Shown here piece after piece: positions 13,090-39,594 of a DNA stretch of 64,000 bases. Numbering within the stretch: the stretch's first letter is position 1; the number at the start of each line of letters is the position of its first letter. Both the position numbers and the translations under genes were made by a program. Source of the DNA: a virus; the IMG/VR virus record IMGVR_UViG_3300021378_000014, positions 17,417 to 81,416 of that record. The stretch is one strand, 5' to 3'. Below the pieces are notes generated by a model. It was given only the letters and a program-made list of their open reading frames with translations, was not told the DNA's origin and made no database searches.

Positions 13090-13668
13090 TTAAAAATCTT
13101 GATCATGAACAATATATGTACCTGTTTGATTGTTTTCTAACCTACGTTGTCTAATATCCCACCAACCTTCAGATCGTACAAAGTTTTCAATGTTAACTTT
13201 AATAAGATCATGTCTTTTACCAAAATCAAGGTCTAGTAATATACGATCATGTTCAGCTTTACTGTAATTAATTCGTTGTGCGTAAAGATTACGTACAACT
13301 TCTCTATCACTATTTTTTAACGGGGCGTTACCTCCGTTAATTATAGTAAATCCAGGATAAGCAGCAATAAACTCTTGTCCTGCAATATACGTAGTTATAA
13401 AACTACTTGTAAATTTATCAGTCACTTCGTATCCTAGTTGACCCCCTAATCGAAGCCAACCGTGTTCTATAAGCATCACTTTATCTACTTCAGTAGTTAG
13501 TGATTTTTTATCTCCTATGGTTATACCATGTACTTCAATAAATTGCTTCATTAAAGCAAAGTTTGCTCTATCTTCTTTAGTAATGTAAAGAAAATAAAGC
13601 AAACTAAATTGTCGTTCATTTATCCTATTATTAATAAGATAAGTAGTGTATTCTTTAAAATCTATCAT
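13090..13668 (-). CDS. Hypothetical protein in the replication unit, 192 aa
   Basis: A soluble, mainly helical protein with no recognisable motif. It overlaps the SF2 helicase gene by 4 nt (ATGA type) and ends 3 nt before the DnaB-like helicase. This placement would suit a helicase loader or accessory factor, but no sequence feature confirms that. Confidence 0.6.
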   Translation of the reverse strand: MIDFKEYTTYLINNRINERQFSLLYFLYITKEDRANFALMKQFIEVHGITIGDKKSLTTEVDKVMLIEHGWLRLGGQLGYEVTDKFTSSFITTYIAGQEFIAAYPGFTIINGGNAPLKNSDREVVRNLYAQRINYSKAEHDRILLDLDFGKRHDLIKVNIENFVRSEGWWDIRQRRLENNQTGTYIVHDQDF

Positions 13669-19795: not shown

Positions 19796-20110
19796 TTAAT
19801 TAAGTTCATATGTTGAGATATACACACGTTGCATATCTTTTTTTCTTTCGTCAGATAGTACAGTAAAATACCAATGATGAAGAGTGGGAGGGTTCCCAAA
19901 CATGGCTGTAACCATGCTAGTTTCTTCATCATCGGTATTAGCAAATAGAGGATTATAGTTATTTATATAAGAAACGTAATCTTCCAAATCCTCCGGTTCT
20001 AGTATTACACGAGTTTCTAAATAGTATAAACCATTTGGAAATCTAATGTAAGGTTTAGCTATTACTTGATCGTATTGCCAATTAGTAATAACTAATTTAT
20101 TCTTAGACAT
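19796..20110 (-). CDS. Hypothetical protein, 104 aa
   Basis: The start is chosen at MSKNKLV (20110), which overlaps the helicase stop by 8 nt. A soluble beta-rich protein (LVITNWQYDQVIAKPYIRFPN...) with an acidic centre and no recognised domain. Its placement right after the SF1 helicase suggests co-translation. Confidence 0.55.
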   Translation of the reverse strand: MSKNKLVITNWQYDQVIAKPYIRFPNGLYYLETRVILEPEDLEDYVSYINNYNPLFANTDDEETSMVTAMFGNPPTLHHWYFTVLSDERKKDMQRVYISTYELN

Positions 20111-21635
20111 AGATAATACTTTTCTCTTTAGCACGACTAAGTGCTACGTATAAAAGATTAAAATATTGTATCTTTTTTATACGTAGTTCTTCATCTCCAA
20201 CTTTAAGTCGAATTGCAATATTTTTACCATCAACAAAACTATTGCTGTAAGTACTACCTTGTGATTTATGGGTAGTGATTACGTAGCCATAATCTATATC
20301 TTTTTTAGGTAAATTTTTAAGAACAATATTATTAGCTTTAGCGTATTTAGCTACAGGACTAGTTTTATAATCATTAAAACTATCAAGTAATAAATAATTT
20401 TTACGCCATTTAAAATATTCAACCCAAGCTCTACCTTTTTGGGTACGAGCAGTATAATGAATACTTTCATGCAATAAAGCAAAATTATCATACGATTCAG
20501 GTTTAACAATATTTAACCAAGGAGTTAGTTCTTGATTACCTGTGTTTTGTAATTGTACTTGCCATGATTTAATAGCGTCTTTATCGTTATGTTCTAATTT
20601 AACTACTTCGTATTCTTGTGAATTAGTTACAATTTCACTTCCTTTTCCTGCAGATACAGTAGTGTAACACATCAATAAATCGTTAAGTGTTATAATCTCA
20701 TCAGTACCAATAATGGCACTACGTACTATGTTATTCCATTCTTTTACTGATTCATTAGTAAAAGTACAAAGTCTTGCGTAATTAGGATCAAATTTAAACT
20801 GTTCATTGCCAAATGTATCTAATACTTTATCTGTAAAATACTTTTTATCTCTAGTAAATTCATACCCTTGTCCATATTGATTATAAATCATTGAGTGATT
20901 AATACAAATGTATCGAAAGAGATGTTCACGGATTAATTGACCTCTATCGTCACGATCATTATTTACACGTAAGAAATTAAAACCAGGTACAAGATGTTCA
21001 GCACTTTCTGTAAATTTAGCGTATTCATCTGTATTAAAACCACTAGTAAGAGTAGTAATATCACAACGTATAGCGTTAGCTAGAAATACCAATGGATTAT
21101 CGGGTTTCTGACGTACTGGTTGTCTTAATTCAAATATATAATCAGATAGTATAAATACAGGACTAGCAGCTTCACCAACAGGAGGTACTTGATAACCATC
21201 ACCAATAAACAGAATTTTAGTCTTAAATCGGTATGCTAGTTCTTTAATAAATTCAAACAGTTCAGTATTAATCATACTAGCTTCGTCAATCAGAAGCAGT
21301 TTATATAATCCCATTTGTGGCTCATTTCTACGAGCAAACTTTGGGTTATTTATATCGAAATTGTCAAGTAAAGTATTAGGAGCAAGACCACAAAGAGCTT
21401 GTACAGTAACAGCTTCAAGTCCAGTTACTAAACGTATAACATTCTTTGCTTTGTGAGTAGGTGCTGATACAGCAACTCCAAATTTATATTTAGAGTTCTT
21501 TGTAATTAGTTCAGACAAAAAAGTCTTACCAGTACCAGCAGGACCGATAAGACTACAAAGATAAGTATCAGTATCGTTATTAATCCATTCAACTATCCTA
21601 GTTAGAGCAGTTTCCTGGTCATTGGTTAAAGTCAT
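20103..21635 (-). CDS. Superfamily 1 DNA helicase (Dda/RecD/Pif1-like)
   Basis: 510 aa. Motifs in order: Q-like TNDQETAL, motif I GPAGTGKT (31-38), motif II LLIDEASMI, motif III FIGDGYQVPPVGE, motif V/Va ITTHKSQGSTYSNSF, and motif VI LLYVALSRAKEKSIIYV. This is the layout of 5'-3' SF1B helicases such as T4 Dda. These act in origin opening, fork restart and strand exchange. It lies downstream of the RepL-like gene and upstream of the polymerase, in the same direction. Confidence 0.9.
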   Translation of the reverse strand: MTLTNDQETALTRIVEWINNDTDTYLCSLIGPAGTGKTFLSELITKNSKYKFGVAVSAPTHKAKNVIRLVTGLEAVTVQALCGLAPNTLLDNFDINNPKFARRNEPQMGLYKLLLIDEASMINTELFEFIKELAYRFKTKILFIGDGYQVPPVGEAASPVFILSDYIFELRQPVRQKPDNPLVFLANAIRCDITTLTSGFNTDEYAKFTESAEHLVPGFNFLRVNNDRDDRGQLIREHLFRYICINHSMIYNQYGQGYEFTRDKKYFTDKVLDTFGNEQFKFDPNYARLCTFTNESVKEWNNIVRSAIIGTDEIITLNDLLMCYTTVSAGKGSEIVTNSQEYEVVKLEHNDKDAIKSWQVQLQNTGNQELTPWLNIVKPESYDNFALLHESIHYTARTQKGRAWVEYFKWRKNYLLLDSFNDYKTSPVAKYAKANNIVLKNLPKKDIDYGYVITTHKSQGSTYSNSFVDGKNIAIRLKVGDEELRIKKIQYFNLLYVALSRAKEKSIIYV

Positions 21636-24483: not shown

Positions 24484-24517
24484 CCCAGTACCGTAGGTAC
24501 AGAACTTTAATTAATAG

Positions 24518-24601
24518 TACCGGGAAAGGGACTTGAACCCTCAATTCCAGATGGAAACAGGATTTTAAGTCCTGCGTGTCTACCAATTTCACCACCCCGG
24601 T
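24518..24601 (-). tRNA. tRNA-Leu(UAA)
   Basis: 84 nt. Acceptor ACCGGGG / TCCCGGT with discriminator A and no encoded CCA. The D-arm reads GTGAAATTGGTAGACAC, typical of tRNA-Leu. The anticodon loop has ACTTAAAAT with anticodon UAA, a long class II variable arm is present, and the T-arm is GAGGG-TTCAAGT-CCCTT. It reads the UUA codon, frequent in this AT-rich phage. Confidence 0.95.
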
Positions 24602-26933: not shown

Positions 26934-26957
26934 AGTTAATTCATTTAAAAGATTAAT

Positions 26958-26989
26958 AAAAAGGGTAGCAGCCTTACGACTACTACCCC
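26958..26989 (-). terminator. Intrinsic terminator
   Basis: GGGTAG / CTACCC stem extended through the loop, followed on the minus strand by TTTTTATT. It ends the 77 aa gene unit. Confidence 0.8.
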
Positions 26990-27007
26990 TAATTCAAAAT
27001 GTTATCG

Positions 27008-27241: not shown

Positions 27242-27265
27242 TGTTGTTTTGTTTAAAAGATTAAT

Positions 27266-27296
27266 AAAAAGAGTAGCAGTCATAAGACCACTACTC
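27266..27296 (-). terminator. Intrinsic terminator
   Basis: GAGTAG / CTACTC stem with extended pairing in the loop, followed on the minus strand by TTTTTATT. It lies after the 215 aa gene and is very similar to the terminator at 26958. Confidence 0.85.
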
Positions 27297-27316
27297 CTAA
27301 TTCATTAAATACTAGA

Positions 27317-27964
27317 CTACGGATTTACTTCTTCCAAATCTAGCTCTTCAGCAGGCACTTCTACTTTACTAGCAGATGGTACATTAGATGTAGTCATCAT
27401 GCTAACAAACATCTGTGTTGCTGCATTCTCGGTCATACGGCCAAGTTTACCTGCAACTTCAGCAGACGGAATGTAAGTAAAGCCAGTAATTGAAAGAAAA
27501 GTGCTGGTATAAGTACCAGTAACTTTACGGCCAGCTTTCTTTCCAGTATACGTTTCACCTTCGATATTAAGTTTAACATCAAGAGTAAATCGACCTTGGT
27601 CAATCGCGCCAGTTGTTGCAATACCCATGTGCGAAAAATTAGCGAAACGTGCATTTTTAGCTACAACATCGGCACGTCCAGGTGCTAACAAAATAGTGTC
27701 ATGCTTTTCGCCGACGCACAAGCCACGAGCAAAGGTTTCATCCATATCATCAGGATCAATACCAATAGATACACGTGGCGCACCATTTACCATATTAGGT
27801 ATAATGCCTAATGTAGTAATGCCTACTGTTACTTGTGCAATACCAGTTGGATTGTCAATACGAAACTGCTTTATGTAAGCAGCCAACGCTGCTGCATAAG
27901 TTGCAGCATCTTCATCACTTAAAGCCGCTACTTGGGCTTTAGTAAGAAATTGAAATGTGTTCAT
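27317..27964 (-). CDS. Abundant early protein with acidic C-terminus, 215 aa
   Basis: Starts MNTFQFLTKAQVAALSDEDA, has a compact central domain (GIAQVTVGITTLGIIP...GIDPDDMDETFARGL), and ends EELDLEEVNP. Codon choice (GCT, GGT, CGT and some C-ending codons) is like that of the capsid gene, suggesting high expression. It is the second gene of the minus-strand block, with its own terminator. Together with the genes at 9280 and 10182 it forms a set of abundant acidic-tailed proteins. The role is unknown, with ssDNA binding or host takeover as possibilities. Confidence 0.6.
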   Translation of the reverse strand: MNTFQFLTKAQVAALSDEDAATYAAALAAYIKQFRIDNPTGIAQVTVGITTLGIIPNMVNGAPRVSIGIDPDDMDETFARGLCVGEKHDTILLAPGRADVVAKNARFANFSHMGIATTGAIDQGRFTLDVKLNIEGETYTGKKAGRKVTGTYTSTFLSITGFTYIPSAEVAGKLGRMTENAATQMFVSMMTTSNVPSASKVEVPAEELDLEEVNP

Positions 27965-28042
27965 ACTAAAAGTGTTTAAAGGTTAAAAAGAATATGTCAA
28001 GTATTAGTAGGTGGTTTACGATTAAGGTTACGTCTAAACAGA

Positions 28043-28070
28043 GGAATATTACTATTGCTAGTAATATTCC
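28043..28070. repeat. Perfect inverted repeat, 12 bp arms
   Basis: GGAATATTACTA / TAGTAATATTCC with a 4 nt loop, between the 70 aa gene and the 215 aa gene. It has no U-tract. It sits inside a segment related to 26434-26500. Confidence 0.75.
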
Positions 28071-28076
28071 TTACTG

Positions 28077-28289
28077 TTAGAACTGTTGTACGTCAGTTAA
28101 GAGGCTCGCGCATACTTCAAATATAGCAATGCTATTAGTTATATAAACTAATACAGCAATACCAGATTTAAATTCAGAATGTACTCTTTGGTTTAGTATT
28201 CTAACCGTTGTACCTCTAGCATAATGAGTACCGAGGGGTTTAGTACTAGTTCTGCAAGGTACAATATCGGCAGCTAGGTATCTGCGCAT
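28077..28289 (-). CDS. Hypothetical protein, 70 aa (first gene of minus block)
   Basis: A small, probably beta-rich protein with an SH3-like alternation of strands (YLAADIVPCRTST...GTTVRILNQRV...GIAVLVYI). It is the first ORF of the minus-strand block, facing the 838 nt control region. No family is recognised, and its coding nature rests on position and an uninterrupted frame. Confidence 0.5.
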   Translation of the reverse strand: MRRYLAADIVPCRTSTKPLGTHYARGTTVRILNQRVHSEFKSGIAVLVYITNSIAIFEVCASLLTDVQQF

Positions 28290-28335
28290 TTTTTGTGAGA
28301 ATTGCGGCTGTTTTTACCAACCAGATTGAAAATAA

Positions 28336-28428
28336 GGCACCTAAGAGCTGTTTTGAGCGACTTGAGGCAAGGGCTAAGGTATTAATACCTGTTAGCGTTC
28401 CGTGTCAGCACAACAGCACAAAGGTGCC
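28336..28428 (+). ncRNA. Candidate structured RNA, ~93 nt
   Basis: Outer stem GGCACCT / AGGTGCC (7 bp), second stem GCTGTT / AACAGC (6 bp), then inside three hairpins: CTTG-AGG-CAAG, GCTAAGGTA-TTAA-TACC-TG-TTAGC, and GTG-TCA-CAC-like. It is less AT-rich than its surroundings and lies just upstream of the minus-strand block. It has no open frame. The strand cannot be decided from pairing alone. It could be a small RNA, a leader element, or a folded ssDNA origin structure. Confidence 0.5.
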
Positions 28429-28447
28429 CATTTGAAATGAAAATCGC

Positions 28448-28482
28448 AATCTCGATGCCTATTAGTATAGATGATCGAGATT
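28448..28482. repeat. Hairpin AATCTCGAT / ATCGAGATT
   Basis: A perfect 9 bp stem with a 17 nt loop. An alternative pairing ATTAGT / ACTAAT overlaps its loop, so two conformations are possible. Confidence 0.65.
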
Positions 28483-28754
28483 TAACGACTAATAGTAAAC
28501 AATCAAGCATTGTATTAATACAATACTTGTTAGAATTTAAAATAGAGTGAAGTATCTAAGCATTTGTGAATCTAGTGATAGATTACAACTACTTAGAATT
28601 AATAATAATAAGATGTAGATCACCATTGCCAGGGCAAGGATCAAGACATTTCTACATATTAATTCCCCAAAAAACTTTTGTTAAAGTTGCTATAGGGGAT
28701 ACTTCAACTCCAAACATTAGTAGGGGGTTGATGTTATGGTGGGTCACGACCCCT

Positions 28755-28924
28755 CTGTTAAAACATAACCCAAAAATTTTAAACATAATTTTTTAAAATC
28801 AAATTATAACTAATCTTTAACTTACTGTTAAAACTTCCCTTAAAAAATATACTATAAAAATTTTTAAAACTAATTTCTAACTTAATTTTTTACTTATAGT
28901 TAAACCTACTGTTAAAACATAACC
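28755..28924 (+). repeat. Three direct repeats of CTGTTAAAACATAACC (iteron-like)
   Basis: Copies at 28755-28770, 28825-28840 (with TTCC in place of ATAA) and 28909-28924, spaced 70 and 84 nt in AT-rich DNA. They are candidate binding sites for the RepL-like initiator. Confidence 0.55.
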
Positions 28925-28998
28925 TAATAATCTTACAACTAGTCCAACTATTAATATTCCACATATACCTCCAAACATCACCAAACATACCCTTATTA

Positions 28999-29018
28999 TA
29001 TAACGTTATATAACGTTA
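28999..29018. repeat. Tandem TATAACGTTA palindromes
   Basis: Two adjacent 10 nt units, each containing the palindrome TAACGTTA, at the right side of the AT-rich region. Confidence 0.6.
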
Positions 29019-29073
29019 CAACAAGTCTTAACTTATCTTTTACTCACGATATTCTTACTATATCTTATAATGT

Positions 29074-29085
29074 GTATATTTACAT
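29074..29085 (+). promoter_or_regulatory. Putative promoter -7 box for plus-strand block
   Basis: GTATATTTACAT fits TAnnTTT and matches the box at 11101 (minus strand). It lies 43 nt before the first plus-strand gene. No clear TTG -33 element is seen. Confidence 0.35.
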
Positions 29086-29127
29086 AGAAAATAATCTACA
29101 ATTAATTTTACAACTAAAAACTAAACA

Positions 29128-32033: not shown

Positions 32034-34349
32034 ATGAATCCTTTTAGTACTACGCTTGAAGAAGAGAAAGCGAATAATAATCCAGCACATTCTTTTAGGT
32101 GGGTAGCTAATAACTTTGAAAAGACTGGGCTTTATCGTACTGAAGATATTACTTTTGCTAATACCGATATAATTAAAGAAGCAAGTAGGCATTTTCAAAA
32201 ATACGGTATTTACAATGATATTGATCCTAAAACTGATCCTATTGCTTTTTCGAGGTGGTGGGATAGATGGGAATATCGACGTAAACATGGAATGGTAGTT
32301 AATTGTAAATTAGATAAATCTGGAGGTAATTCAGATAAAGATTTGCAACCTCTTTGGATTCCTGGTAAAATGGTAGGTCTTATGAATTTCGGACCCATTC
32401 TTCGTACTGCTGATCCTGATGATCTAACTATATTAGATGCTAATACTGCTACGTTAGATCAACGTAAAAGACTAGGGATTGATGAAGAAATGGAACAACT
32501 ATTTAGTAAAATCAAAGTAAACGAAACTGCTGATATTACACATGACTTTATGGATTTCTGGGATGGTCACTTTCATTATTGGGTTGCTCAAGATTTTAGT
32601 GAACGTATTGGATTAGATATGGTTGTAGTTAAAGCCCGACGTAAAGGTTTTAGTTATATAGGTGCGTGGGATGCTTGGGATGAAGTTTACATGAATCCTT
32701 TTATTAGTATCTTTTTAGTAGCTTATGATATGAAATATCTTACAGCTTCTGGTGGTCTTTTTTCGTTAGTTCAACAGTATTTTAACTTTGAACAAAAATA
32801 TACAGACTGGCGTAAACGTACACTTAGTAAAACTAAAGATCATATTAAGTTTGGATTTACATTTACTGGCGATCAAGAAGAGTATGGTTTCCTAAGTAGT
32901 ATTACTTGTTTTTCTGCTATGGATAATCCAGATTGTTTACGTGGTAAAATGGCTAAAAAGATTAAATGGGAAGAAACAGGTACGTTTCCTAATCTACAAC
33001 AGACAAGAGAAATTGCATATTCGGCTGCTGAAGCTGGGGGATACAAACTTGGACATAGCACTTATTGGGGTACTGCTGGTAGTAAAGATGGAGATTATGG
33101 TCCACTTCGTAGTGCTTTTTATAAACCTATTAGTTTTGAAGCTTTACCGTTTGATAATATTTGGGATATTAATAAAGAAGGTACAGAAGCTGCTTTATTC
33201 TTTGGTCAACTTCAAAATCTAGTTTATGATAAAGATGGTAATACAGATATAGAAGCCGGTAAACAATTCCATTTACGTAAAACAGAAAGAGCACGTAATA
33301 GTAAAACTGCTAGTCAATTCCAGCAATGGTCTGCTGAAAGAGCTACTACTCCTGCTGAAGCTTTGAACAGACAAGGTGATAATATCTTTTCTGCTTTAGC
33401 GGGCAGACTACAAATGCAAGTTGATCGTTTAGATATAGACCCTGTACTTAAATCAATTGGTCGTTGTGGAAGATTAGAAGAAACAACTAGTGGTATTCGT
33501 TTAATTACAAACGAAGAATTAAAACTACAAGGTAAACCTTATCATCTACCAATTAATGATACACCTGAAGCTTTAAGTAGAGATATGGATATGCATGGTT
33601 GTGTAGTTGAATGGTTTAGTCCACATACTATATCTTATGTTGATCCTCATGATCCATTCTCTTTTACTGGGAAAGTAAATTCAGTTGTACCCAAAGGATT
33701 ATACTATATTTGGCATGATCCGTATGCAACTGATAAAGATAGTACTCAAATTACTATTAAAGATTCTCTTGGTGTTGCTTATGTATACGAAAAAGCAAAC
33801 GGATTTACTCCGAGTAAAGGTGATCGTATAGTAGCTAGTTGGATTGGTAGACCTGATACAACTGATGGTTATAACTCTCAACTTTTACTTTTATGTAAGT
33901 ATTATAATACAATAGATGGTTTACTTTTTGAGAATGACCGAGGTGATGTTTATCCTTATTTTAAACATCATAAAGCTTTACGTTATTTAATGGAAGAACC
34001 TGAAATGTTAACACTTAAAGAACTTAGTGGTAAGACAGGTAGAAATTATGGTTTATCTATTGGTAAAAACTTTAGACGTAAAGCGGAAGGTGCTCGTATG
34101 CTTAAAGATATGCTTAGTTCAGTATTTAGTAAAAATCAAGAAACTAATATTGAAACTACGTTTATAGAGTATATATACTGTAAACGTTTATTGAAAGAGT
34201 TATTACGATGGAATAAAGATGGTAACTTTGATTGTGTTTCTGCTTGTATTGTAGGTCAATTTATGATTAGAGAAATAGAAGAAAGAGAAACAGAAACTGA
34301 AGATACATTTAAAGAAGTAGATGATTTCTTTACGCGTGCTCATTTTTAA
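32034..34349 (+). CDS. terL: Terminase large subunit
   Basis: 771 aa, the crAss-type large terminase length. The ATPase domain has the Walker A-like loop VVKARRKGFSYIGAWD (~198-213) and later KIKWEETGTF as Walker B/catalytic Glu region. The C-terminal RNase H-like nuclease has YIWHDPYATDKDSTQ (first metal Asp), LLFENDRGDVYPYF and FDCVSACIVGQFM (final Asp). It packages DNA into proheads through the portal encoded next. Copy 10 of the dispersed hairpin lies at 33658, between the two domains, read as SFTGKV. Confidence 0.92.
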   Translation: MNPFSTTLEEEKANNNPAHSFRWVANNFEKTGLYRTEDITFANTDIIKEASRHFQKYGIYNDIDPKTDPIAFSRWWDRWEYRRKHGMVVNCKLDKSGGNSDKDLQPLWIPGKMVGLMNFGPILRTADPDDLTILDANTATLDQRKRLGIDEEMEQLFSKIKVNETADITHDFMDFWDGHFHYWVAQDFSERIGLDMVVVKARRKGFSYIGAWDAWDEVYMNPFISIFLVAYDMKYLTASGGLFSLVQQYFNFEQKYTDWRKRTLSKTKDHIKFGFTFTGDQEEYGFLSSITCFSAMDNPDCLRGKMAKKIKWEETGTFPNLQQTREIAYSAAEAGGYKLGHSTYWGTAGSKDGDYGPLRSAFYKPISFEALPFDNIWDINKEGTEAALFFGQLQNLVYDKDGNTDIEAGKQFHLRKTERARNSKTASQFQQWSAERATTPAEALNRQGDNIFSALAGRLQMQVDRLDIDPVLKSIGRCGRLEETTSGIRLITNEELKLQGKPYHLPINDTPEALSRDMDMHGCVVEWFSPHTISYVDPHDPFSFTGKVNSVVPKGLYYIWHDPYATDKDSTQITIKDSLGVAYVYEKANGFTPSKGDRIVASWIGRPDTTDGYNSQLLLLCKYYNTIDGLLFENDRGDVYPYFKHHKALRYLMEEPEMLTLKELSGKTGRNYGLSIGKNFRRKAEGARMLKDMLSSVFSKNQETNIETTFIEYIYCKRLLKELLRWNKDGNFDCVSACIVGQFMIREIEERETETEDTFKEVDDFFTRAHF
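33658..33675 (-). repeat. Dispersed hairpin motif, copy 10
   Basis: CTTT-CCCAGTA-AAAG on the minus strand, in the terminase gene, read on the plus strand as SFTGKV. Confidence 0.8.
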
Positions 34350-34379: not shown

Positions 34380-36821
34380 ATGAATGGTTATCCTAGTCAG
34401 TATATTTCTCTAAGTGAGAAATTAAAAATAGCCCCACATAAAAAAGTACCAGATTGGATTATAGCTAATTATAATTACTGGTCACAACAAGCTTCACCTC
34501 ATATAGCAGATATTGATATTTTTCAAGAATTAGAATCTGTAGCTGAAGGAAAGATTAGTACTAACAAGTACAAATATATTGAAAATCCTTTTAATACAGA
34601 TAATCCTGATTATAAACGCTATCCAGCAAGAATTAGGAATTATGATATTATCAAACCTATTCTTGAACGTTATATTGGAGAACGTCTTGAACGACCAGAT
34701 ACACAACAAGTATACGCTAAGAATGAGGAAGTAGTTAATGAATTTAAAGTAGCTCGTAGTCAATTCTTTGAAGGAATTTTACAGCAACAATTTATTAACG
34801 AATTAAATAGTCTAGGTATGGATACTGGTATGGACTCAAAAGAGATACCAGGTATGAAAGACTTAGAGGATGAATTTATTCTTAATTATACTAAGAAACG
34901 AGCTAAGTATGGTAGTGAAAGTCTTGAGCTTTTAAAATCACAACTATTATTAAAAGAGAAGTATCAAAAAGCATTTTACTATTGGTTAGTCTTTGGTAGA
35001 GTTTATGCGATGAAAGGCATTAATTATGATGATGTTCAGTATAGTATACTTGATCCTAAAGATGTAACTGTAATTGGTTGGAATGACGATAGTAGATATG
35101 CAGAAGATGCTCAAGCTAGTATTGTTACTAAGCAATGGTCTTTAGCTAGTATTATAGATAATTGGGGACCTCAATTAATAGAGCGTTACGGTAAAGGTAT
35201 TATTAAACAATTAGAAACCAGAATGGGTAGTCAAAGACTTCCTACTTCAGGTGCTGTTGTTCGTAATGGTGAATTTGTTTATACTCCGTCTGGTGATCGT
35301 TATGGTTTAGAAAATACAGCAATGTTAGATGTTCAATATATTAATTGGAAATCTATTGCTAAACGTGGTATTCTTACTTTTATAAATGAGAAAGGTTTAC
35401 CTGATACAGCTATTGTTGATGATGAATATCGTCCTGATCCAATGGCTGGAGAAGTAAATATTGAATGGATACCGGAGAATGAAGTATGGCAAATGATAGT
35501 TATAGCTGATGGCTTAACTAGCACTAATACTACATTTGGAACTAACGCTAATTTAAACGAATTAACCGGAGATAGTGAAGGTTTTGCTGGAGCTATATTC
35601 TTAGAGTATGGTCCTGTTCCTGTACAAAGGAATATGATTAATAATAGTTCAATTTGTAAGTTACCACTTAATGGTACTTATTTTGGTTACGATCCTTCTA
35701 TTATTGACAGTATTGTTAAAAAAGGAATTAGTTACCAAGAACTATATAATATATTTCATTATAGGTTTGAACTTACACTAGCTAAGAATAAAGATAAACT
35801 GATGCTATTTCCATTAGGTCTTATACCTAAAGATAAAGGTTGGACTGTTGATACTTGGATGTATCAAGTTCATGCTTTTAGTTTAGCATTCTTTGATGAA
35901 ACTAGCGAAAAAGCTATGGCTGCTATGCAAGCTATGAAAAGTATTGATATGAGTTTAAGTCAGTACATGGGGCAGATGTGGGAGTTTATGCAAGGTATTC
36001 GACAAGAGTGGTGGGATAGCATTGGTATGAATAATCAACGTTATGGAGACATAAGTTCTAGTGCTGGTAAAGGAACTACACAACAAGCAGTTTATCGTAG
36101 TAGTGTTAGTACTAAAGAATTAAACTTTCAATTTGATTGTTTCTTAGATCAAGAAGCAAATGGTTTAATTGATTACAGTAAATATGCTTGGGCAGAAGGT
36201 AAAAAAGGTAGTTACATTACTAGTACTGGAAGTCAAGTATTTTATGATATTAATGCGGAAGATCACGCTACTACTGAATATGGTGTTTTTTCTACTTCTT
36301 CTATTGAAGAATATGATAACGTTCAATTCTTAAAAAATGTATTACTTCAACCTATGGCTCAGAATGGTACTCCTGGTAGTATTGTTACTAAAGTTATTAA
36401 AAGTAATAATTTAGCTAAGATTGAGGAGTTGATGGAAAAAGGAGAACAAATACAACAGAAGTTAGTGGCAGATCAGCAAGAACAACAAAATGAAACTCAA
36501 CGTTATATTGCTGATAGCGCTAACAAAATGACAGCTGATTCTAATCAAGTTAAACTTGATATTGCAAATATTGCAGCAGATAGTCGAATTGAAGTGGCAA
36601 AAATTACAGCTGATAGTTTTAATGCTGCAGCTGGAGATGCTGACGGTGACGGTATACCAGAATCTGATGAAATAATGGCAAGAGCTTACCAAAGACAATT
36701 AGCTAGAGAACAACTACAAGAACAAAAAAGAGCGTCTTTAGCTAAGGAAGACTTAGCGCGGCAAAAGGTCAATACATCGTTAGCAGTAGCAAAAGAAAAT
36801 AAAAATAAACATGATAACTAA
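34380..36821 (+). CDS. Portal protein
   Basis: 813 aa, matching the large crAss-like portal. The order terminase, portal, scaffold-like, capsid supports the call. The body includes a long helical region (KEIPGMKDLEDEFILNYTKKRAKYG...) and QYSILDPKDVTVIGW in the wing/stem area. The last ~120 residues form a long helical, Gln/Ala-rich tail. Within it DADGDGIPESDE (~752-764) looks like a calcium-binding loop. A dodecameric portal forms the packaging channel and the base of the tail. Confidence 0.85.
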   Translation: MNGYPSQYISLSEKLKIAPHKKVPDWIIANYNYWSQQASPHIADIDIFQELESVAEGKISTNKYKYIENPFNTDNPDYKRYPARIRNYDIIKPILERYIGERLERPDTQQVYAKNEEVVNEFKVARSQFFEGILQQQFINELNSLGMDTGMDSKEIPGMKDLEDEFILNYTKKRAKYGSESLELLKSQLLLKEKYQKAFYYWLVFGRVYAMKGINYDDVQYSILDPKDVTVIGWNDDSRYAEDAQASIVTKQWSLASIIDNWGPQLIERYGKGIIKQLETRMGSQRLPTSGAVVRNGEFVYTPSGDRYGLENTAMLDVQYINWKSIAKRGILTFINEKGLPDTAIVDDEYRPDPMAGEVNIEWIPENEVWQMIVIADGLTSTNTTFGTNANLNELTGDSEGFAGAIFLEYGPVPVQRNMINNSSICKLPLNGTYFGYDPSIIDSIVKKGISYQELYNIFHYRFELTLAKNKDKLMLFPLGLIPKDKGWTVDTWMYQVHAFSLAFFDETSEKAMAAMQAMKSIDMSLSQYMGQMWEFMQGIRQEWWDSIGMNNQRYGDISSSAGKGTTQQAVYRSSVSTKELNFQFDCFLDQEANGLIDYSKYAWAEGKKGSYITSTGSQVFYDINAEDHATTEYGVFSTSSIEEYDNVQFLKNVLLQPMAQNGTPGSIVTKVIKSNNLAKIEELMEKGEQIQQKLVADQQEQQNETQRYIADSANKMTADSNQVKLDIANIAADSRIEVAKITADSFNAAAGDADGDGIPESDEIMARAYQRQLAREQLQEQKRASLAKEDLARQKVNTSLAVAKENKNKHDN

Positions 36822-38103: not shown

Positions 38104-39594
38104 ATGTCTGATTTTCAATCTCGCATTGTAGTCCATAATGAGACTTTTGATGCAAGTGGTATTAGTGATCAAAATCGACTTGATCGAGCTTTGATGTCTA
38201 AACCTGATCAACTAACTCCTGTTATTACTGCTCTTATGGGTGGTTGGAGTTCTAATTTTCCTCTGCTTTCATTAACTGAAGGTCAGATGGGCGGAACTAA
38301 GGAGAATGCAATTAATGATATTCAATACGAGTATCCTGTAATTACTAAACCTAAGCGTAGCGAACGTCTTGTTCGTTATGATGGCCCTGCTGGAGTTGCA
38401 AAAGGAGTTAACTTTACTCCTATTTTTGTAGTATTTCCTAGTGCTTGGTTTCCTTTCCAATCTTCACTCCGTAGTCGTAGTGGTACACAAGTTCGTGTAT
38501 CTGCTGAACCTATTAAAGTTAGTGGAGGTTATCGGTATGAATTGAATCACTTTGAACCTAATGCTGATTTTACTCTACCTGATAGTGACTTTGAACCTGG
38601 CGCTGTTTGGGCTCGCGTAGGTGGTAGTACTGTTACTGAAAGCCGGTCTATTGGTAATAGTAATCCTGTACAGAATCCCGGTAAACGTAAAAACCAAATT
38701 GGTATTTTGCGTGAATCTTATCATTATGCTGGTAATATTGCTAACAAAACTGTAGAGTTTCAATTGTATAACGGTGGTGGTAAATCCAGTAGCCTTTATA
38801 TTGATTGGGAAAACTTTCAGCATATGTTGAACTGGCGCCAGTATAAGGAAGAGCAATTGTGGGTATCACGTTATTCACGTAATGCTGACGGTAGTAACCC
38901 TTTACGTGATAGCCGTTTAAATCAAATTATTCCTACGGGTGCTGGTTTGCTTCAGCAGATTGTTAATAGTGATACTTATTCTACCCTTACGGAGAAGAAA
39001 GTTCGTAGCATTATTAGTGATGTATTCCGTGGTGCTCCTGATACCGGAGCTATGGATATTATCCTGTATACTGGTACTGGCGGCAAGGATGAATTTGACG
39101 CAGCTTTCAAAGATAGCAATATCTTTAAACTGGTAGCTGAAGGTGTAGGTGATAAATTTGTACGTAGTGCAGGTGGTAACTTACAACTTGGTGGTTACTT
39201 TACTTCTTATAAGCATATTGATGGTCACTTTGTTACTATCAAAACTCTTCCCATGTTGAACTTGGGTGGTTATGCTGATGCAAGTGGTATTCATCCTGTA
39301 AGTGGTTTGCCTATTTCTAGTTACGAAATGTATTTCATTGATCAATCTCGTTATGACGGTGTACCTAACGTACAAATGGTCTATCAAAAAGGTCGTATGG
39401 AAGTTCGTGGTATTCAACAAGGTATGACTATCTTGAATGAATCTACTTATGGTGACTTTAAAGGAATGCAAAAATCTGGTTATTTAAACTTAGCAACTGA
39501 ACAAGATGAAACTAGTGTTCACTATCTTTGTACCGCTGGTATTCAAATGATGCGTGATACTCATAGTTTTTCTTTGCTTCCTTCTATTGGGTAA
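38104..39594 (+). CDS. Major capsid protein (HK97 fold, crAss-type)
   Basis: 496 aa, within the narrow length range of crAss-like major capsid proteins. Features include the N-terminal arm (MSDFQSRIVVHNETFDASG), a long region with FVVFPSAWFPFQSSLRSRSG, and IDWENFQHMLNWRQYKEEQLW. Codon choice is strongly biased towards GGT, CGT and some C-ending codons compared with neighbours, as expected for the most abundant protein. It forms the icosahedral shell around the DNA and cargo. It follows the scaffold-like gene by 34 nt. Confidence 0.9.
   Translation: MSDFQSRIVVHNETFDASGISDQNRLDRALMSKPDQLTPVITALMGGWSSNFPLLSLTEGQMGGTKENAINDIQYEYPVITKPKRSERLVRYDGPAGVAKGVNFTPIFVVFPSAWFPFQSSLRSRSGTQVRVSAEPIKVSGGYRYELNHFEPNADFTLPDSDFEPGAVWARVGGSTVTESRSIGNSNPVQNPGKRKNQIGILRESYHYAGNIANKTVEFQLYNGGGKSSSLYIDWENFQHMLNWRQYKEEQLWVSRYSRNADGSNPLRDSRLNQIIPTGAGLLQQIVNSDTYSTLTEKKVRSIISDVFRGAPDTGAMDIILYTGTGGKDEFDAAFKDSNIFKLVAEGVGDKFVRSAGGNLQLGGYFTSYKHIDGHFVTIKTLPMLNLGGYADASGIHPVSGLPISSYEMYFIDQSRYDGVPNVQMVYQKGRMEVRGIQQGMTILNESTYGDFKGMQKSGYLNLATEQDETSVHYLCTAGIQMMRDTHSFSLLPSIG

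Follow-up and report, generated by a model that had tools for sequence, protein, structure and literature searches.

A rod-like inverted repeat in the divergent gap of a crAss-like phage: candidate segment of a folded early-mRNA leader

The 93-nt inverted repeat at 28336-28428 (the element) may be a segment of a folded untranslated leader of the leftward early transcript, acting in cis on stability, elongation or translation. We give this reading, which is built from predicted folds and gene order, a probability of about 0.45. The inverted repeat, its better-than-shuffle fold, the minus-strand bias of the stretch around it and the absence of any credible coding frame were established directly. 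The earlier note offered a small RNA, a leader or a single-stranded origin structure for this segment; the evidence leans to the leader, and the small RNA and the origin are less favoured. The leader is preferred among the three because the stretch 28000-28660 carries sense-strand structure and because structured segments are found in most relatives.

Genome setting

The window is the whole stretch of DNA analysed here, 64 kb (positions 17417-81416) of an 81,416-bp virus record (G000). Judged by its terminase, portal and capsid, the phage of the window is crAss-like (Crassvirales). The tblastn matches to crAss-like phages are mostly 24-32% identical. Genes run leftward left of 27964 and rightward right of 29128, and the element sits inside the 1,163-bp gap between the opposed gene blocks. 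The features of the setting are as follows.

27317-27964, minus strand: first minus-strand (early) gene, 215 aa, function unassigned, presumed gene downstream of the leader
27965-29127, no strand: divergent non-coding gap, 1,163 bp, flanked by the early block (minus strand) and the late block (plus strand)
28771-29127, no strand: A+T-rich tract, 20.7% GC
32034-34349, right (plus) block: terminase, E 5e-76 to a PHROGs family
34380-36821, right (plus) block: portal, crAss-like
38104-39594, right (plus) block: capsid, E 4e-74 to a PHROGs family

The early gene 27317-27964 has a coding score of 0.32 and matches its positional counterpart in L088 only weakly. A 70-aa minus-strand ORF at 28077-28289 has a coding score near zero. 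The cumulative GC skew reaches its minimum within the divergent gap (28-30 kb). The A+T-rich tract is probably a promoter region and possibly the melting region of an origin. Promoter calls in this tract barely exceed those in shuffled sequences, and no convincing promoter was identified. The Bacteroidota -7 motif TAnnTTTG occurs 104 times in the window against 99 expected, and its count is therefore uninformative. ARAGORN called one tRNA-Leu at 24517-24601 (24518-24601 as an Rfam tRNA) and no tRNA or tmRNA in the gap.

Fold of the 93-nt element

The element is described by one line.

28336-28428, minus strand: 93-nt imperfect inverted repeat, rod-like fold, with perfect closing stems of 7 bp and 6 bp

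The two nested Watson-Crick closing stems described in the earlier note are present: GGCACCT (28336-28342) pairs with AGGTGCC (28422-28428), and GCTGTT/AACAGC is nested within. The G/C content was said to be higher than that of the surroundings, and it is 50.5% in the element against 39.4% on the left (28176-28335) and 29.3% on the right (28429-28660), falling to 20.7% further right in 28771-29127. The location upstream of the first minus-strand gene (27317-27964) was also correct, and the claim that there is no coding frame agrees with our finding that no ORF longer than 46 aa spans the element. The three short hairpins proposed within the closing stems were not obtained. The minimum-energy fold on either strand is a single long rod with internal loops, which ends in a 4-nt terminal loop. 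The three-hairpin fold with the closing stems has energies of -27.8 (plus) and -28.4 (minus) kcal/mol, 6-7 worse than the rod.

When the folding energy was compared with dinucleotide shuffles, as the earlier note had proposed, the element folded better than the controls on both strands (plus, -34.1 kcal/mol, z -3.27; minus, -35.0 kcal/mol, z -3.75). The closing stem can be lengthened at its base on the minus strand, to 28330-28433, which gives -37.3 kcal/mol and z -4.27 as scored over 28325-28436. The extended stem has 12 bp with one bulge, and its right arm runs into UUAUUUU. The folds of the element as single-strand DNA also beat shuffles (z -2.9 and -3.4).

Of the 93-nt windows across the whole genome, 1.4% on the minus strand and 3.1% on the plus strand reach an equal or better z, and dozens of genome sites fold more strongly than the element. 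The window holds 16 instances of the nested 7+6-bp closing geometry with a span of 60-130 nt; shuffled windows hold 4-27 (mean ~13), so that the frequency is that of chance. The element is thus real but by itself not exceptional.

The structured stretch around the element

We compared 55 stretches of 660 nt, sampled across the 81-kb record. The stretch 28000-28659 ranks first of the 55 both for minus-strand structure and for strand difference. Against shuffles, the folding of 28000-28660 gives z -7.5 to -7.9 on the minus strand and z -3.0 to -3.8 on the plus strand, and the strand difference has z -4.6. On average, structure is stronger on the minus strand within the left gene block and on the plus strand within the right one; the structure bias therefore tracks the sense strand. 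In a structured early-mRNA leader, the sense-strand RNA ahead of the first early gene would be folded, and this is what was found. At least five further hairpins or rods lie between the A+T-rich tract (~28.77-29.1 kb) and the first early gene (27964), and most of them beat shuffles on the minus strand.

28000-28659, minus strand: structured stretch holding the element, first of 55 stretches in minus-strand structure
28042-28071, minus strand: hairpin with a 13-bp perfect stem and a 4-nt loop, on the side of the element that faces the first early gene
28203-28271, minus strand: second closed rod, TTGTACC/GGTACAA arms, z -3.0
28446-28489, minus strand: hairpin, AATCTCGAT/ATCGAGATT arms, z -3.5
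28504-28529, minus strand: 11-bp hairpin with a weak T-rich tail, z -6.6, the sole terminator-like call in the gap
28559-28597, minus strand: nested hairpin, TCTAAG/CTTAGA arms, z -5.5

Searches for homologues and known RNA classes

Blastn of phage records with the element gave no meaningful match. A covariance model of the extended element, which has limited reach as it is built from a single sequence, recovered nothing but the window itself from ~1.8 Mb of loci and 16 whole phage records. In a scan of 2.9 million viral contigs, exact 17-mer matches were found in L083 and L084. They are taken as chance, since the similarity does not extend past 17-21 nt.

No Rfam 15 family was found over the element, either at the gathering score or at E 10; the tRNA at 24518-24601 was the sole match to pass the gathering score. 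The scan for intrinsic terminators, defined as a short G/C-rich hairpin with a loop of 3-8 nt and a U run directly after it, did not call the element, whose UUAUUUU tail is interrupted and whose closing stem encloses ~80 nt. Neither iterons nor any known origin motif was observed. A literature search on non-coding RNAs of crAss-like phages found no paper.

The terminase search yielded 80 loci, almost all of them with identities of 23-31%, and in addition three short same-species fragments, which end short of the gap. Nearer phages came from alignment-based searches, with terminase identities of 48% (L088), 45% (L193), 38% (L186) and 36% (L192). Among isolate and metagenome-assembled genomes, no terminase above 32% identity was found. 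A 1.61-Mb contig of Zeaxanthinibacter sp. PT1 (L164, 900238-921998) holds a crAss-like terminase (32% identical) and an adjacent portal-sized gene; this locus in a chromosome-sized bacterial contig is possibly an integrated or carried crAss-like phage.

Divergent gaps of related phages

In the divergent gaps of 27 crAss-like phages, windows at z <= -4 make up 6.2% on the minus strand and 4.0% on the plus strand, against 0.6-0.7% in the terminase gene. Strongly folded windows are thus enriched about tenfold in the gaps, and structured untranslated segments lie in the same place in most relatives. Only a weak strand bias emerges over 26 phages (17/26, p = 0.03). The nearest phage with a complete gap is L088 (terminase 48% identical), in which three features were located.

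L088:5606-5690: rod with a 17-bp closing stem, z -5.8 on the minus strand and -7.4 on the plus strand
L088:5690-5750: second rod
L088:5548-5572: terminator-like hairpin ending in a U6 tail, which separates the rods from the first early gene

Terminator-like hairpins occur in the same gap of L088, L107 and L032, and the gap of L192 holds several structured elements. Two gap stretches were examined in L193 (terminase 45% identical), and neither was better than shuffles. The type of feature recurs among the relatives, but the sequence does not.

The leader and its alternatives

Leftward (minus-strand) transcription would start in the A+T-rich tract at ~28.77-29.1 kb. In the leader RNA the element would fold as a single long rod whose closing stem is formed by its own ends. 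The folded leader may then act in cis, shielding the early mRNA from host ribonucleases, and/or it may slow or attenuate transcription and translation of the first early genes. According to RNA-seq of crAss001, the early genes form a separate strand-specific block that is transcribed within 10 minutes of infection (PMC8375218), and the early genes of Crassvirales are attributed to the virion RNA polymerase (PMC10136315). Several observations stand against the leader. The strand preference of the element alone is small (z -3.75 against -3.27) and 1.4% of genome windows score as well, the element has no detected homologue, the two gap stretches examined in L193 fold no better than shuffles, the strand bias over 26 phages is weak and no convincing promoter was identified.

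The repeat could instead have arisen by chance, so that the gap would be a structured leader in which the repeat has no function of its own. The closing geometry at chance frequency (16 against a mean of ~13), the rank of the element merely in the top 1.4-3% of genome windows and the lack of conservation in any search all agree with this idea. We nevertheless consider it rather unlikely, as the local z is -3.3 to -4.3, the G/C content peaks in the repeat itself and the element lies within the most structured stretch of the genome (first of 55 sampled). An origin of replication, in which the element would act as DNA by forming a hairpin or cruciform beside the A+T-rich tract at the gene-block junction, would suit the GC-skew minimum at 28-30 kb, the 20.7% GC tract 340 nt rightward and the single-strand DNA folds. 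In a zeta crAss-like phage, Ori-Finder predicted an origin where two gene blocks join (PMC12386605). GC skew also tracks gene orientation, though, and neither iterons or a known origin motif nor a homologue in relatives was seen. Structure in double-stranded DNA should be strand-neutral, whereas the stretch 28000-28660 is strand-biased (z difference -4.6); RNA read leftward is therefore favoured over a structure acting on the DNA, and the origin appears improbable.

A free phage small RNA would be ~105-110 nt long, with paired ends and a U-rich tail, made from its own promoter or by processing and directed at host or phage targets. Paired closed ends protect stable small RNAs, and the closed ends of the element resemble them; the 12-bp minus-strand stem with its one bulge ends in UUAUUUU, and in L088 a terminator-like hairpin divides the structured stretch from the first gene. 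This identity is a shade less probable than the origin, given that the Rfam search stayed empty over the element even at E 10, that the 81-kb record holds no gene for a TROVE/Ro60 partner, that there is no dedicated promoter, and that the tail is short and the loop much too long for a canonical terminator. The last alternative is an attenuator or terminator of the leftward transcript. For it speak the UUAUUUU that comes after the G/C-rich closing stem on the minus strand and the terminator-like hairpins in the same gap of L088 (5548-5572), L107 and L032. With an interrupted tail, a stem enclosing ~80 nt unlike that of an intrinsic terminator, and no call by the terminator scan, we think an attenuator very improbable. 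The folded early-mRNA leader is thus the reading that we prefer.

Covarying hairpins on early mRNAs

Two families of short hairpins (alpha and beta) with compensatory changes were found in the untranslated regions of early genes of freshwater crAss-like phages. Carriers include L020, L029, L031, L037, L038, L041, L042, L056 and L060. Family beta is a 53-nt hairpin of the form 'TTGCTCCTAGGTTC-stem-GTTTAGTAAGAGCACAA', and both of its stems show compensatory changes. The covariance model R1 gave 13 strong matches in 11 loci, at times two copies per genome. All 10 of the 10 pairs are kept in 10 sequences, and five pairs are changed on both sides. In 11 of the 13 copies the hairpin ends 7-8 nt upstream of an early ORF's start codon.

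Family beta loci: L020 (x2), L029, L031, L034, L037, L038, L041 (x2), L042, L053, L056, L059
Family beta example: L031:6147-6199, minus strand

Family alpha is a 44-nt nested three-stem hairpin of the form 'CAGGT..AGAGCATCCACT..AGTGGCTCTGCTCTCACCTG'. Nine of its 10 copies start 5-17 nt past an early stop codon, and three pairs have changes on both sides.

L020:5067-5110, minus strand: family alpha
L029:1973-2016, minus strand: family alpha
L031:5756-5799, minus strand: family alpha
L037:4645-4688, minus strand: family alpha
L038:5079-5122, minus strand: family alpha
L041:176-219, minus strand: family alpha
L042:1457-1500, minus strand: family alpha
L056:5529-5573, minus strand: family alpha
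L059:1350-1394, minus strand: family alpha
L060:5729-5773, minus strand: family alpha

Rfam found neither family in L031, which bears both. The element shows no sequence likeness to family alpha, and membership of family beta was rejected, as model R1 had no match in the window or in L082. The two families, with their freshwater members, are provable cases of structured early-mRNA modules; structured untranslated modules on early mRNAs therefore exist in this order. The element might belong to a general, undescribed layer of early-gene control, made of mosaic, lineage-specific structured RNA modules in leaders and 3' ends, which the virion RNA polymerase or some other phage-encoded factor might recognise. 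We put this forward tentatively, as a doubtful generalization.

Other shared modules were observed among the crAss-like phages. A 44-nt module 'AATGCACCATAACTCACTTCCMAARGGTGAGCAGTTGTAATA' is 93-100% kept among phages with differing surroundings (L057:3792-3835; also L019, L031, L037, L039, L049 and L060). A structured module of ~112 nt is 77% shared by distant crAss-like phages (L005:5787-5898, L032:7058-7169 and L038:4735-4847), and in L005 and L032 it is part of mosaic non-coding arrays of 1-2 kb. Rfam tRNA matches that ARAGORN did not call lie at L005:4232-4322 and L032:5538-5628 (minus).

Other repeats and hairpins in the genome

An 18-bp motif, TCTATTACTGGGAAAGAT, has ~22 copies over the 81-kb genome, on both strands and in genic and intergenic positions, against 0.1 expected in the window. 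Within genes it often encodes S-I/F-T-G-K. It is present in the fragments of the same species and absent from the relatives checked.

TCTATTACTGGGAAAGAT sites in the window: 7173, 12775, 17003, 19408, 23135, 23168, 30570, 33660, 37191, 40817, 51495, 52082, 56752, 58159; eight others in L082

Two 51-bp terminator-like hairpins with U5 and ATTAATCTTTTAAA lie on the minus strand between early genes (window 26944-26996 and 27252-27304). The copies are 88% identical and show paired stem changes. Minus-strand hairpins in the leftward block with shuffle z of -7 to -8.8 were found at 13517-13609, 19865-19957 and 1713-1805; the one at 19865-19957 has 17-bp closing arms and lies inside the ORF 19796-20134.

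Significance

The crAss-like phages are very abundant in the gut and the environment, and the start and control of their early genes are poorly understood. A strand-biased structured leader at the early/late junction would offer a defined stretch for probing, and the conservation of alpha and beta suffices for real tests of early-mRNA control at the 5' and 3' ends. The element alone would alter little; the leader stretch and the two families are the better leads.

Comparison with known systems

Like a Y RNA, the element is ~100 nt long with paired ends and a U-rich 3' tail. An early TROVE gene was reported in crAss001 (PMC8375218). Y RNAs bind TROVE/Ro60, whereas here no TROVE gene (PF05731) was found in the 81-kb record, which is possibly incomplete, or in 16 relatives, and the element has no Rfam match; a Y RNA was thus rejected.

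The promoters of the virion RNA polymerase of coliphage N4 consist of small hairpins (5-7 bp, 3-nt loop) set at a fixed distance from the start site. They resemble the element in being inverted repeats upstream of early genes, and Crassvirales carry a virion RNA polymerase. The 93-nt element folds into a long rod whose terminal loop has 4 nt, and a hairpin promoter of the N4 type was rejected on this ground. The transcription programme of Crassvirales has been likened to that of N4 (PMC10136315).

Families alpha and beta differ from the element in that they are ~44-53 nt long, conserved in sequence and covarying, whereas the element has no such family. Like them, the element would be a small structured RNA module in an untranslated region of early genes, and the phage order is the same. 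Early mRNAs of phages and bacteria can carry structured 5' leaders, such as stability hairpins and attenuators. Compared with these, the stretch described here has no conserved sequence, is known from sequence alone and has no regulator or ligand assigned. It shares with these leaders that it is untranslated, lies upstream of the first gene of its block and is structured on the sense strand.
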